This document shows, one piece after another, positions 3 through 40,386 of a DNA stretch of 43,589 nt (positions within the stretch are counted from its first letter, which is position 1; every line of letters starts with the position of its first letter). The notes under the pieces were generated by a model. That model searched no databases. It had not been told where the DNA came from and worked only from the letters and a program-made list of their open reading frames with translations. Origin of the DNA: Elusimicrobiaceae bacterium (GTDB lineage: Bacteria; Elusimicrobiota; Elusimicrobia; Elusimicrobiales; Elusimicrobiaceae); the NCBI GenBank assembly GCA_017534965.1, contig JAFXVA010000018.1, positions 1-43,589 on the forward strand. The letters run 5' to 3'. The position numbers and the translations under genes were made by a program.

Positions 3-884
3 AATATGAGTGTGGACTTTGCTTTGGATGCAAAAGAATATGGCCGTTTCAGATTTAACGTTTTTAGACAAATGGGTAAAATTTGTATGGCTATTAGGCA
101 CATTCCTTTGGCAATCCCATCTTATGAACAATTAAATTTACCTGTAGAAGTTTTAAAAAATTTAGCCAATACTCGCCGTGGTATTATTTTAGTCACCGGT
201 ATGACAGGTTCCGGTAAATCTTCCACCTTAGCAGCAATGATAGATCAAATAAACAAAAGCCGCCATGCCCATATTTTGACAATTGAAGATCCTATTGAAT
301 TCGTGCACCAGGATAAAAAATCTGTTATCAGCCAACTTGCTTTGGGAACTGATACAGCTTCTTATACCTCTGCTTTAAAATATGCAATGCGTCAAGATCC
401 GGATGTTATTTTAATCGGCGAGTTAAGAGATGCAGAAGTTATCCGTGCTGCTATTACAGCGGCAGAAACCGGTCAACTTGTGTTTTCTACCATGCACACA
501 ATTAACGCCGTTCAAACTTTAACCAGAATTATTGAAACTTTCCCTGCAGAACAACAAGGTCAAATACGCTTTCAGTTAGCAGATTTGATTAGGGGTGTTG
601 TTTCCCAACGTTTGATTCCGAAAAAAGACGGCAAAGGCCTTGTCCCTGCAATTGAAATTATGTTGCCTACAGCTCAAATTAAAAAACATATTTTGGATAA
701 CAATATTAATGATATTCAACAAGCTATCCAAAAAGGCGATTACTATGGCATGATTGATTTTGATACCTCTTTAATCAATCTCTATGAAAAAGGCATTTGC
801 AGCATGGAAGATATTTTGAACTTCTCTACTAATCCGGATGCCGTGCAACTTGCTTTAAAGAACTTTAAGATGAAAAATGACTAA
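3..884 (+). CDS. pilT: Type IV pilus retraction ATPase PilT (5' partial)
   Basis: This is the hexameric motor ATPase that depolymerises type IV pili at the inner face of the cytoplasmic membrane. The frame is open to the window edge and, counting from the first ATG at 6, lacks about 70-80 residues of the usual 345-370, so the true start lies upstream. Visible motifs, numbered from that ATG, are Walker A GMTGSGKSS (65-73), the Asp box EDPIEF (94-99), Walker B DPDVILIGELRD (131-142) and the His box STMHTINA (161-168). The C-terminal part ends in the PilT-like stretch with FDTSLINLYEKG. Its stop overlaps the start of cmk by 8 bases, which suggests co-transcription. PilU is the main alternative. 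The pilins at 9480 and 36497 are plausible substrates. Confidence 0.93.
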   Translation, partial: NMSVDFALDAKEYGRFRFNVFRQMGKICMAIRHIPLAIPSYEQLNLPVEVLKNLANTRRGIILVTGMTGSGKSSTLAAMIDQINKSRHAHILTIEDPIEFVHQDKKSVISQLALGTDTASYTSALKYAMRQDPDVILIGELRDAEVIRAAITAAETGQLVFSTMHTINAVQTLTRIIETFPAEQQGQIRFQLADLIRGVVSQRLIPKKDGKGLVPAIEIMLPTAQIKKHILDNNINDIQQAIQKGDYYGMIDFDTSLINLYEKGICSMEDILNFSTNPDAVQLALKNFKMKND

Positions 885-9479: not shown

Positions 9480-9965
9480 ATGAAAACAAATAAAGGTTTT
9501 ACTTTAGTGGAAATTCTTGTAGTAGTTTTAATAATCGGCATTTTATCAGCTATTGCTGTGCCTCAATATAACCGCTCTGTAAAAAAGAGTCGCGCTATGC
9601 AACAGGTTATTTTACTTAAAAGTGCCCGAGAATCTTTAGACGCCTTTTATTTGGTTCATAGAGAAGATGCTACTCCAACCAGAGAAGATCTTGAAATAGA
9701 ACTTCCTCCTAATACAGATGATTTGGATATTCAAGTAATAAAAAATAGTGACGGCGTTAGAGTTGCTGCTAGAGAAAAGAAAAATGGCGGAGATGATTTT
9801 GTTATAAGATATTTTAGGACTTCTCCAAGATTTCCGGAATATACAGGCAGAATTGTTTGCACCGGACAAAATTCCACAGGGGATAAAATTTGCCAGGATA
9901 TAGGCGGAACAGACGGCCATAAATATAAGTTTATTCCTAGTCAAAATGCGTGGTATCTAAACTAA
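9480..9965 (+). CDS. Type IV pilin-like protein
   Basis: This prepilin of 161 residues has a six-residue leader (MKTNKG), cleavage expected between Gly6 and Phe7, and Glu at mature position 5 (FTLVE). The usual hydrophobic helix LVVVLIIGILSAIAVPQY follows. It would be processed by the prepilin peptidase and packed into a pilus or pseudopilus. The C-terminal half holds two cysteines (IVC and KIC) that could close a small disulfide loop. A good ribosome binding site (ACGGAG) lies ten bases before the ATG. The same leader is found before the lipoprotein at 23154. A terminator follows directly. Whether it is a major or minor pilin cannot be told. Confidence 0.88.
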   Translation: MKTNKGFTLVEILVVVLIIGILSAIAVPQYNRSVKKSRAMQQVILLKSARESLDAFYLVHREDATPTREDLEIELPPNTDDLDIQVIKNSDGVRVAAREKKNGGDDFVIRYFRTSPRFPEYTGRIVCTGQNSTGDKICQDIGGTDGHKYKFIPSQNAWYLN

Positions 9966-36478: not shown

Positions 36479-36496
36479 TTATAAGGAGAATAGATT

Positions 36497-39178
36497 ATGG
36501 CTAATATTAAGAAAAAAACCAAAAAGGGTTTTACCCTTGTAGAAATGCTGATAGTCGTAATGATGATTGGTATTCTTGCAGCAGTTGCAGTGCCGACTTA
36601 TATGAAAACAGTGGAAAAATCTCGTGCGACACAAGCGATTTCAACACTTAATGAAATAGCTAGAGCACAAAATGTTTATAATGTCAAAACAGGACATTTT
36701 TCTGGTGTTTTTATGCCTTTACCTTTGGAAATAAAAGATAAAGATGGTAATGATGCGATAGAAAGAAAATTTGAGGATAAATATTTTTCTTATATGTTGA
36801 ATGTTCCTACAACATATAGTGCTAGAGCTATGCGTGAGTATAAAGATGAACCTTACTATCTTTACATCGATTATGTCACGGGGAATATTTCTTGTGAACC
36901 CCAAAGACATCAAATGTGCAAAACTCTTGAATTACAATCTTGGAAAAAACTGAATTGCTTTTTAGGGCCTTCATCAAACGGCAACATATTAGAATATGAT
37001 AGTAATTGTTTTTCCAATTATAATTATGTTGGATTTCATTGCGAAGGGAATTTGTGTGGTGAATTTAGTGACGGAAAATTAATTGGTAAGTGGGATTTTG
37101 ATACAAAAACTTGTCAAATATATTCTGCGCATTCTATTGCAGGTGCTTCAGATACCGTTATGCAAGGTAATCAGTGGTTGTGTGTTAAAGGAAAAATGTG
37201 TGTGATGGATAAACAACATCCAGGGCAATGCCTGCCTGAAACAGAACCGCAAGATCCCGAATCTGAAACAACTATTGAATGTAAAATTATAAAAGACAAG
37301 GTTCAATGCTCAATTATAAAAGATGGTAAAGAACTTGGTGTTTGTGATGCTGCTGAACCACAATGTTTTGAAAAATTAGGAGCAAGCGGTCTTGTATGTT
37401 CCCCAAAAGAGGGTAAATGTTATACTTACCAAAATGGTAAAGTGGTAGATAGTTGTAAGGCAAATAAAGAGGGCACTGCTTGTGTTGAAATGAGTGTTAA
37501 ATGCGAGGCGGGTAAATGTTCCATTTTAGAAGATGGCAAAGAAGTTGGACAATGTTCTGTAGAGGAACCACAATGCTTTGAGAAATTAGGGGCAAGCGGT
37601 CTTGTTTGTGACTCTAAAAAAGGTGTTTGCTATAACTATCAAAACGGCAAATTACTTGGTGAATGCAAAGCAAATAAAGAAGGCACCGCCTGTGATGAAA
37701 CACCCCAGGAAGCTGTTATAACTTATAAATGTAATAAGAATATGTGCACCATTTATAAAGACGGAGAAGCAGTTGCAGAGTGTGGAACATGGGATAGTAG
37801 CTGTCTTGGCGGATATAAAATTAACGGGCTTATTTGTGATACAAAAGACAATATCTGCTATACCTTTAAAGATGGTCAAATTGTAGGCGTTTGTGATAAA
37901 GCAGTCCCCGGTTGCCAAGAGGGAACTCTTAATAGAGAACATCCTTCAGATGGTATAGCTTGCTATGAAGATGATGAATATTGTTATAATTACGAAAAAG
38001 GCCAATTACTTAATTGGTGTCGCAAAAACTTATTAGGTAATGCTTGCTTAGGGGCAAATGAAGAGCTTGTTTGCTATAAAGATAAAGGTGTTTGTGTAGA
38101 TTATGACGGCGGTAAAATTGTTGGCGAGTGTAGAATAAATAATACCGGCACAGGTTGTGCAAAAGCAGATGATGGTATGAAAGATGGCGTTTTGTGTGAA
38201 AAAGGCACTTGCTATGTTTATAAAAATGGTGAAGTTGTTGACCAATGTAAAGCTAATCTTGAAGGTAATGATTGCGCAAAACCTCATGGTAAGAGAACTA
38301 TGGAGTGTGTTGGTACAACCTGCACAATTTTTGAAGACGGCAAGAAAATCGGTTCTTGCAATTATTATCAAAGTAATTGTCTTGCCGATTATGAAGTAAA
38401 CGGACAAGTGTGTGATGTTAAATCTACAATGTGCTATACCTATGAAAATGGCAAAATAAAACTTAATTGTCAAAAAATAAGTGGAATTTGCCAAAATGTA
38501 GAAACGGGCCTCTTCTGCTATAGTAATGCCAGCTATAGTCAATGTGCTGATGGAGAAGCAGAAATGAAGGAAATATATTCTGTCAAGTGTAACGCAGATG
38601 GCGAATGTAAATACTATGAAGGTATAGATGGAACTGTTGTAGCTTCGTGTAAAATAGGGGATCAAGAGTGCTATGAAAAATATAATGTAAGCATGTTCTA
38701 TTGTGATAAAGAACTATGTTATACCTATAAAGACGGAAAACTGATGGATAAATGTAAAGTCAATGCTGCCGGTAATGGGTGTGATGTTGAGCCAACATGT
38801 AAACCTGATGATTGGGATTGCATCTGTAAAGGGGCTAAACCGCAGTGTTTTGAAGATAACGGTGCAAGTGGCTTCTTCTGTTTCCCTGAGGAAGGTGCTT
38901 GTTATACCTTTGAAAAAGGCAAAAGGGTTAGCGATTGTAAAATTAATGATACTGGCACCGGTTGTTTAGAAGAAAAACCCAAAGACGGTTGGGTTTGCGA
39001 TGGTGGGTGGACTTGCGCAGAATACGAAAAAGATAAACCTACTGGCAAAACTTGCTATTACAATGGTAAAGATGGCTGTATAACAGGCAAAGGTAAAGAG
39101 CGAGTTTGTATAGAAATTGATTATAAACAACAATGCCGAACTTATGTTGATGGGTCTTATACAAGCGGGAAAATTTGA
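36497..39178 (+). CDS. Giant type IV pilin-like protein with tandem four-cysteine repeats
   Basis: The 893-residue product begins as a prepilin: an 11-residue basic leader ending in Gly11, then FTLVEMLIVVMMIGILAAVAVPTY with Glu at mature position 5, and a normal pilin helix and head to about residue 135. The rest is a Cys-rich array; I count about 78 cysteines. From about residue 260 it consists of some 15 complete units of 30-38 residues, each with four Cys. The core is C-x-x-(Y/F/L)-x-x-G-(K/E/Q) with a fixed 11-residue gap between the second and third Cys in nearly all units. Usual pilins have 130-200 residues. It would be an exported, disulfide-stabilised stalk on a pilin anchor. Function is unknown; adhesion is a guess. 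Confidence 0.85.
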   Translation: MANIKKKTKKGFTLVEMLIVVMMIGILAAVAVPTYMKTVEKSRATQAISTLNEIARAQNVYNVKTGHFSGVFMPLPLEIKDKDGNDAIERKFEDKYFSYMLNVPTTYSARAMREYKDEPYYLYIDYVTGNISCEPQRHQMCKTLELQSWKKLNCFLGPSSNGNILEYDSNCFSNYNYVGFHCEGNLCGEFSDGKLIGKWDFDTKTCQIYSAHSIAGASDTVMQGNQWLCVKGKMCVMDKQHPGQCLPETEPQDPESETTIECKIIKDKVQCSIIKDGKELGVCDAAEPQCFEKLGASGLVCSPKEGKCYTYQNGKVVDSCKANKEGTACVEMSVKCEAGKCSILEDGKEVGQCSVEEPQCFEKLGASGLVCDSKKGVCYNYQNGKLLGECKANKEGTACDETPQEAVITYKCNKNMCTIYKDGEAVAECGTWDSSCLGGYKINGLICDTKDNICYTFKDGQIVGVCDKAVPGCQEGTLNREHPSDGIACYEDDEYCYNYEKGQLLNWCRKNLLGNACLGANEELVCYKDKGVCVDYDGGKIVGECRINNTGTGCAKADDGMKDGVLCEKGTCYVYKNGEVVDQCKANLEGNDCAKPHGKRTMECVGTTCTIFEDGKKIGSCNYYQSNCLADYEVNGQVCDVKSTMCYTYENGKIKLNCQKISGICQNVETGLFCYSNASYSQCADGEAEMKEIYSVKCNADGECKYYEGIDGTVVASCKIGDQECYEKYNVSMFYCDKELCYTYKDGKLMDKCKVNAAGNGCDVEPTCKPDDWDCICKGAKPQCFEDNGASGFFCFPEEGACYTFEKGKRVSDCKINDTGTGCLEEKPKDGWVCDGGWTCAEYEKDKPTGKTCYYNGKDGCITGKGKERVCIEIDYKQQCRTYVDGSYTSGKI
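37274..39175 (+). repeat. In-gene tandem repeat array encoding alternating A and B Cys units
   Basis: Two unit types alternate. Type A has Cys3-x6-Cys4 (CDAAEPQC, CSVEEPQC). Type B has Cys3-x8-Cys4 (CKANKEGTAC, CRINNTGTGC, CKINDTGTGC). One A-B pair spans about 70 residues. The first two pairs are nearly the same at DNA level with an exact 210-base offset (GAACCA at 37355 and 37565). A third similar copy begins near 38837. This shows growth by recent duplication. Confidence 0.85.
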
Positions 39179-39198: not shown

Positions 39199-39231
39199 AA
39201 CAGCCCTGAAGAAAAATCAGGGCTGTTTTTT
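39199..39231 (+). terminator. Terminator after the giant pilin gene
   Basis: AACAGCCCTGA (39199-39209), loop AGAAAAA and TCAGGGCTGTT (39217-39227) form a perfect stem, followed by T residues to 39231. Confidence 0.93.
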
Positions 39232-39262: not shown

Positions 39263-39628
39263 TTATTTTTTCTTTAAATGTTTTTTGATTGCCTCAAAAC
39301 TTTCTTCGGAAATTATATGTTCTATTTTGCAGGCGTCTTCTAAAGCGACTTGTTGGCTTACCCCTATAGAAACAAGCCAGGCGGAAAGTATTTCGTGTTT
39401 TTCATAAACACCCAAGGCAAAAGCGCGCCCTTTAGGCGTTAAGGTGATAGAGGAATCTTCCCCGACATTGATATATTTTGCCGCTTTTAAATTTTTTAAA
39501 GCCACACTTACACTTGCACGGGAAAAGTTTAAATTTTTGGCAATATCTATAGCTTTTACCTTATCGGATTTTTGGCTTAAGATATAAATAATTTCCAAAT
39601 AATTTTCTTTTGATTCTGAAATACTCAT
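39263..39628 (-). CDS. DtxR/MntR-family metal-dependent regulator (short form)
   Basis: The 121-residue protein has the N-terminal winged helix of the family (SKENYLEIIYILSQKS, then AIDIAKNLNFSRASVSVALKNL) and the metal-binding/dimer domain with HEILSAWLVSIGV and CKIEHIISEESF, where Glu and His are placed as metal ligands. It lacks the C-terminal SH3-like domain of DtxR and is shorter than MntR (about 140), so it is a minimal form. It would bind operators when loaded with Mn or Fe. TATAAT on the minus strand ends six bases before the ATG, so the message may be leaderless. It is divergent from the secreted protein at 39835, a possible target. Confidence 0.82.
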   Translation of the reverse strand: MSISESKENYLEIIYILSQKSDKVKAIDIAKNLNFSRASVSVALKNLKAAKYINVGEDSSITLTPKGRAFALGVYEKHEILSAWLVSIGVSQQVALEDACKIEHIISEESFEAIKKHLKKK

Positions 39629-39834: not shown

Positions 39835-40386
39835 ATGATAAAGAAAAGTTTAATAATAATTGCTTTACTACTATGCTTTGCACAGGTATATGCAAAAAAT
39901 AATAATTTTAAAGAGTTTGATAAAACTAACTTTAAAACCCGGTTAAATCAAGCAAAACAGACGGTAGAAAGAGAATATCTTAATAATACCAAAAGTATTG
40001 ATGCTAAAATTATTGCGCTCTTAAATTCTTTTGATGCAAAACTTTATAAAAGTATTAAAAGTGATATTGAAGTTACGCCGATAACTCAGACGAAATATTC
40101 CGCTGTGCGCAGCGCCCGTAAAAAACATGAATATATTAAGCATTATACCAGCCAAATGCGCGCTGATGGTAATGTTGCAGCAAAACAGATTTATTTTCGC
40201 AAAACTGCCGCTATTTTAAATTATTTGAAAGGGTATGATAGAAGTATTTCCTATCAAACAAAAATCGCTCTTTTAAGCCGCACAAATCAAGTGGTGCAAA
40301 AAGCCAAAGCCAATGATTTTAAAGGGGCCTATAAATTAGCAGAAGGCCTTTCTAAAGATTATTACAGATATGTTAAATTGTCTTAG
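39835..40386 (+). CDS. Secreted helical protein, unknown function
   Basis: I do not recognise this 183-residue protein. It has a signal peptide with likely cleavage after Ala20 (QVYA). The mature part is basic, Lys/Arg/Tyr-rich and probably all helical, without cysteine, so it is likely periplasmic or released. A GGAG ribosome binding site lies nine to ten bases before the ATG, behind the strongest promoter seen in the window, so high expression is expected when not repressed. The divergent DtxR-like gene suggests a metal-linked role, without proof. Confidence 0.7.
   Translation: MIKKSLIIIALLLCFAQVYAKNNNFKEFDKTNFKTRLNQAKQTVEREYLNNTKSIDAKIIALLNSFDAKLYKSIKSDIEVTPITQTKYSAVRSARKKHEYIKHYTSQMRADGNVAAKQIYFRKTAAILNYLKGYDRSISYQTKIALLSRTNQVVQKAKANDFKGAYKLAEGLSKDYYRYVKLS

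Follow-up and report, generated by a model that had tools for sequence, protein, structure and literature searches.

A predicted modular type IV pilin with a long tandem array of four-cysteine units in an Elusimicrobiaceae bacterium

What a bacterium might do with a type IV prepilin that runs on into a long cysteine-rich repeat array is the question raised by an open reading frame at 36497-39178 (+) in the window, i.e., the whole stretch of 43,589 nucleotides that was analysed (contig JAFXVA010000018.1 of assembly GCA_017534965.1, from an Elusimicrobiaceae bacterium). The single open frame encodes 893 amino acids, starts with an ATG at 36497 a few bases 3' of a Shine-Dalgarno sequence (AAGGAG, approximately 36483..36488, +) and is followed by a strong intrinsic terminator of its own (39199..39227, +; an 11 bp stem and a T run). 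It contains exactly 78 cysteines, close to the hand count of the original prediction (about 78), which amounts to 8.7% of residues compared with 1.00% in the 36 other counted ORFs of the window.

The N-terminus (MANIKKKTKKG, 36497..36529, +, followed by FTLVEMLIVV...) is a canonical class III prepilin leader ending in Gly, with a hydrophobic stretch behind it and Glu at +5, and cleavage is predicted after Gly11. Matches above cut-off to N_methyl (PF07963, E=1.5e-6) and to TIGR02532 bear out the prepilin start that had been read there. Residues 12-150 (36530..36946, +) form a complete pilin module that can be aligned with 31 other pilins of the genus (32 heads), some of them ordinary paralogs of about 150 amino acids which stop at about residue 150, where in the alignment the array of the giant pilin starts. 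Within these 32 heads Cys133 is invariant and its partner in the C133/C141 pair nearly so. The AlphaFold model of the head has a long alpha1 helix (residues 14-65) followed by a beta-sheet, and Foldseek matches it to the gonococcal pilin 1ay2 with a probability of 1.00 (TMt 0.48; 41st in rank by E-value); model and search together give the long alpha1 helix and antiparallel beta-sheet head of a type IV pilin. Because the head aligns with ordinary pilins, is modelled with the full pilin fold and matches 1ay2, the array is grafted after a complete pilin module. The array folds separately in the models, so the protein has the complete pilin module and subsequent extra module of a modular pilin in the sense of Pelicic.

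The head is followed by a divergent linker (residues 151-258; 36947..37270, +) that includes one degenerate unit, then by the array itself (residues 259-868; 37271..39100, +), and the protein closes with the C-terminal end of the array (QCRTYVDGSY) and the stop codon (39101..39178, +). A unit HMM was built from 38 aligned units of three species, in which the unit pattern is roughly phi-phi-C-x(4-8)-C-[YT]-x-[YF]-x-[DN]-G-K-x-[VIL]-x-x-C-x(6-8)-C. On the giant pilin it marks 17 stretches, namely 15 clear units (about 15 complete units had been predicted), one degenerate unit early on (residues 179-208) and one half unit, giving about 16 four-Cys units in all. The second and third cysteines (C2 and C3) are separated by 11 residues in 27 of the 38 units and by 12 in a further eight, and most units carry an aromatic-x-x-G-K core. 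TRF found no tandem repeat in the gene at the DNA level, so most of the units are old; two adjoining two-unit blocks (residues 262-333 and 336-405) are visibly similar. Alignment with MAFFT used non-overlapping segments of four units.

For the array, Pfam, NCBIfam, PHROGs and PDB sequences gave no significant match, nor did Foldseek against PDB and BFVD give a significant fold match or a fold relative of known binding function, and identity with a known domain is rejected accordingly. No Pfam profile of a known Cys-rich repeat family matches the unit, the best hits being chance ones below cut-off, and a tblastn search of plasmids and phages together with a search of viral contigs revealed no relative of the array. 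The 38 aligned units define a domain that is missing from the family libraries searched (Pfam, NCBIfam, PHROGs).

When four units were modelled alone, AlphaFold gave the repeated fold that the original prediction had proposed to look for, with good confidence (mean pLDDT 88, pTM 0.66), each unit being a beta-meander of three strands and every other unit being followed by a short helix. We derived the cysteine pairing from the DSSP strand registers of the models, in which C1 and C2 are exactly cross-strand in all five modelled hairpins and C3 is not opposite C2; the C1-C2 spacing ranges from 4 to 8 residues among units and the modelled turn length shifts accordingly. Since C1 lies directly opposite C2 in the models, the most likely disulfides would be C1-C2, bridging the first hairpin, and C3-C4, bridging the loop or helix that comes next. 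Of 56 closed mature pilins, 50 have an even number of cysteines, compared with an even:odd ratio of 16:17 in the other window ORFs, and the ratio is 19:4 among mature pilins with at least 8 Cys, although the pilins counted are related (clustering merges nearly all of them via the conserved helix) and any P value is therefore overstated.

The fusion of head and array is also found elsewhere. The ortholog nearest to the giant pilin has 640 amino acids and 50 Cys and comes from a goat-abomasum Elusimicrobiaceae MAG (L039). It occupies the same position as in the window, downstream of LemA and M48 peptidase genes and upstream of a DtxR-type gene and a gene for a 183-aa exported protein; the ortholog in a third species (G006; 963 aa, 86 Cys) again adjoins both the DtxR-type gene and that for the 183-aa protein. 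The fusion that had been proposed, as opposed to an assembly join, is upheld by this occurrence of the same fusion at a conserved locus in two sister species. Between the giant pilin and the 640-aa ortholog, which share 62% identity, none of the 50 aligned Cys columns varies and the gap in length consists mostly of whole units. Array length changes by whole units, because the syntenic orthologs carry 12 and 20 HMM stretches compared with 17 in the giant pilin, and it is thus tunable in evolution through whole-unit gain and loss. The giant pilin is under purifying selection (dN/dS about 0.26 overall and 0.21 in the array against the 640-aa ortholog), its fastest-evolving part being the linker (about residues 151-258), with a dN/dS of 0.49. 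Among 341 Elusimicrobiota genomes, the array profile matches three, all of one genus. Outside the Elusimicrobiota the search was a pattern scan for close relatives; the one relative that it gave is the goat-abomasum MAG, itself of the Elusimicrobiaceae, and more distant relatives may exist elsewhere.

The genome encodes the core type IV pilus machinery and one prepilin peptidase, in keeping with the functional pilus that had been predicted. A cluster on contig C13 holds one ORF each in the PilM/N position, where Pfam gave no match, and in the PilP position, together with a weak PilO, the secretin (PilQ), PilB, PilC and several small prepilin-like genes resembling minor pilins. The genome has two more, shorter PilT-type ATPases of the T2SSE family, one of which is the PilT recognized at the start of the window (6-884), and the second pilin that had been placed at 9480 is an ordinary one of 161 amino acids. 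A search for PilY1 gave no match, nor did any control genome give one. A second secretin/ATPase system lies on contig C45, and near it is a 1468-aa protein (L114:8824-13230 (-)) with FlgD_ig and, at its C-terminus, a weak match of the CHU_C type. The giant pilin gene lies outside the pil cluster. It is adjoined in all three species by the gene for a DtxR-family, iron-dependent-repressor-like regulator (39263..39628, -; Pfam), beyond which lies that for the 183-aa exported protein (39835..40386, +), with a signal peptide and a mature part that contains no Cys. Family matches of the 183-aa protein are weak or chance ones only.

The reading that we favour, by a cautious preference, is that of a giant modular type IV pilin whose array, most likely locked by disulfides, is displayed, probably either from the tip of the pilus or as a sparse side arm, and would serve surface attachment. 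Prepilin peptidase would cleave the protein, which could then enter the filament through helix alpha1, leaving about 16 small three-stranded beta units pointing outward beyond the pilin sheet. With each unit locked by two putative disulfides (C1-C2 and C3-C4), the array would resist proteases and act as an extendable arm or multivalent adhesin, through which this gut bacterium may attach to surfaces of the host, of feed particles or of microbes. Cleavage and assembly are putative, as are the disulfides, the position at the tip and the adhesive role. The undetected DsbB and VKOR, the tendency of obligate anaerobes to avoid Cys in exported proteins (PMC12453122), the lack of a fold relative of known binding function and the separation from the pil cluster count against such an adhesive arm.

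Rather unlikely, in our view, is a modular pilin in which the array is only a stalk or spacer and contact is made by its C-terminal end or by a partner such as the 183-aa protein. CofB, an adapter for the secreted CofJ, would be the precedent (PMC8179133), and close homologs of the 183-aa protein occur in the same three genomes only, next door to the pilin gene in each. However, these genomes may be one subclade, so that co-occurrence may reflect shared descent, and the DtxR gene intervenes before the 183-aa gene, with variable orientation. It is improbable that the product is a prepilin-like, membrane-anchored surface or periplasmic protein that stays outside filaments and uses its head for export and anchoring only. 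The locus apart from the pil cluster, the very bulky cargo and the 28 prepilin-like genes of the genome would suit such a protein, but Glu+5, the full alpha1 helix and the pilin sheet have all been retained under purifying selection. Very improbable is that the Cys units form no disulfides and instead bind metal or store thiol or redox equivalents, as the conserved DtxR-family neighbour and the failure to find DsbB or VKOR might suggest, since the units contain no CxxC or His-rich ligand pattern, Cys counts are even and C1-C2 is exactly cross-strand in the models. An assembly join or a chance ORF is scarcely credible, even in a MAG-like genome of 47 contigs, and is ruled out by the syntenic head-array fusion in two sister species, the dN/dS of 0.26 and the gene's own terminator.

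The disulfide-locked arm that we favour raises the question of how a presumably anaerobic gut bacterium in which neither DsbB nor VKOR was detected (96.5%-complete genome) could oxidise a single exported protein with as many as 39 disulfides. Cys tends to be avoided in the exported proteins of obligate anaerobes, although some have DsbA-like enzymes without a partner, and SdbA of S. gordonii can function with one Cys (PMC12453122). The only DsbA-like match in the genome (L134:1417-2361 (-)), which falls below cut-off, is an exported protein of 314 amino acids with one active-site Cys (CPYG), and is possibly an unusual oxidase.

Cys-rich prepilins are not confined to this locus. The genome has 28 prepilin-like matches, and a second, larger prepilin that it encodes (L104:1970-7174 (-), contig C13) has 1734 amino acids and 150 Cys in a different, CxCPxG-type Cys-rich region, with phage-like terminase and portal genes nearby (L074). 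Other species of the genus have Cys-rich giant prepilins of 803, 872, 489 and 490 amino acids (L085, L086, L087 and L088) with 64, 72, 42 and 42 Cys, respectively, and prepilins are expanded in five genomes (G004, G008, G012, G014 and G015), some species of the genus reaching 77-111 matches to the pilin head per genome. The unit HMM has no match in the other pilins tested, among them the giants of 1734, 803, 489 and 490 amino acids, so that their modules differ from the array; the array profile likewise has no match in the genomes of the four giants from other species. It is conceivable, and we hold it as a tentative idea, that the pilins of the genus have become a general display scaffold, many paralogs carrying different Cys-rich modules that evolve fast (the largest with 1734 aa and 150 Cys) and are folded by an unusual oxidative route with DsbB and VKOR undetected. 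If so, oxidation itself would be unusual, e.g., by a single-Cys DsbA-like enzyme or outside the cell. The surface structures of Elusimicrobiota have hardly been studied.

The resemblance to CofB (ETEC) and TcpB (Vibrio cholerae) is limited to layout, as those are type IVb minor pilins with no Cys array. They share a C-terminal beta-repeat extension on which a secreted partner may dock (PMC8179133). The small beta-meander units and their D/N-G-K turn also recall MORN and beta-propeller-blade-like repeats, which gave weak Foldseek hits, but no match is significant (E>0.001), TM is about 0.2 and the Cys pattern is missing, so that by the tests run they are unrelated. The original prediction knew of no described pilin family with this layout, which does not hold in that form, since modular pilins with large C-terminal modules have already been described (PMC8179133); our literature search found none with cysteine-rich repeats. 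The published survey required that the extra module be recognized in signature databases, while its discussion also counts unrecognized ones such as CofB (PMC8179133), and the array is not recognized in Pfam, NCBIfam, PHROGs or PDB. A modular pilin of Falkowbacteria, 860 residues long, contains IPR013211 in 12 copies and is likewise a giant pilin with tandem repeats (PMC8179133), although its repeat is apparently different, given that the array has no Pfam match, and it is set apart here by description rather than sequence. In PilB and PilC of Streptococcus sanguinis, an N-terminal pilin module that undergoes prepilin processing is followed by a bulky module that is displayed, most likely at the tip, and binds host ligands, the two being proposed tip adhesins (PMC8179133, PMC9934059). 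By analogy with them, the array may be displayed as an arm that is adhesive or acts as a stalk. Theirs is one known globular adhesion domain (vWA or lectin), whereas the giant pilin, roughly twice their length, carries about 16 tandem four-Cys units, and it is by analogy that an adhesive role is suggested for it. The modular-pilin concept is thus already known and the new part is the module of this array, which extends modular pilins by a repeat module that is specific to this lineage, tunable in length and probably rich in disulfides.
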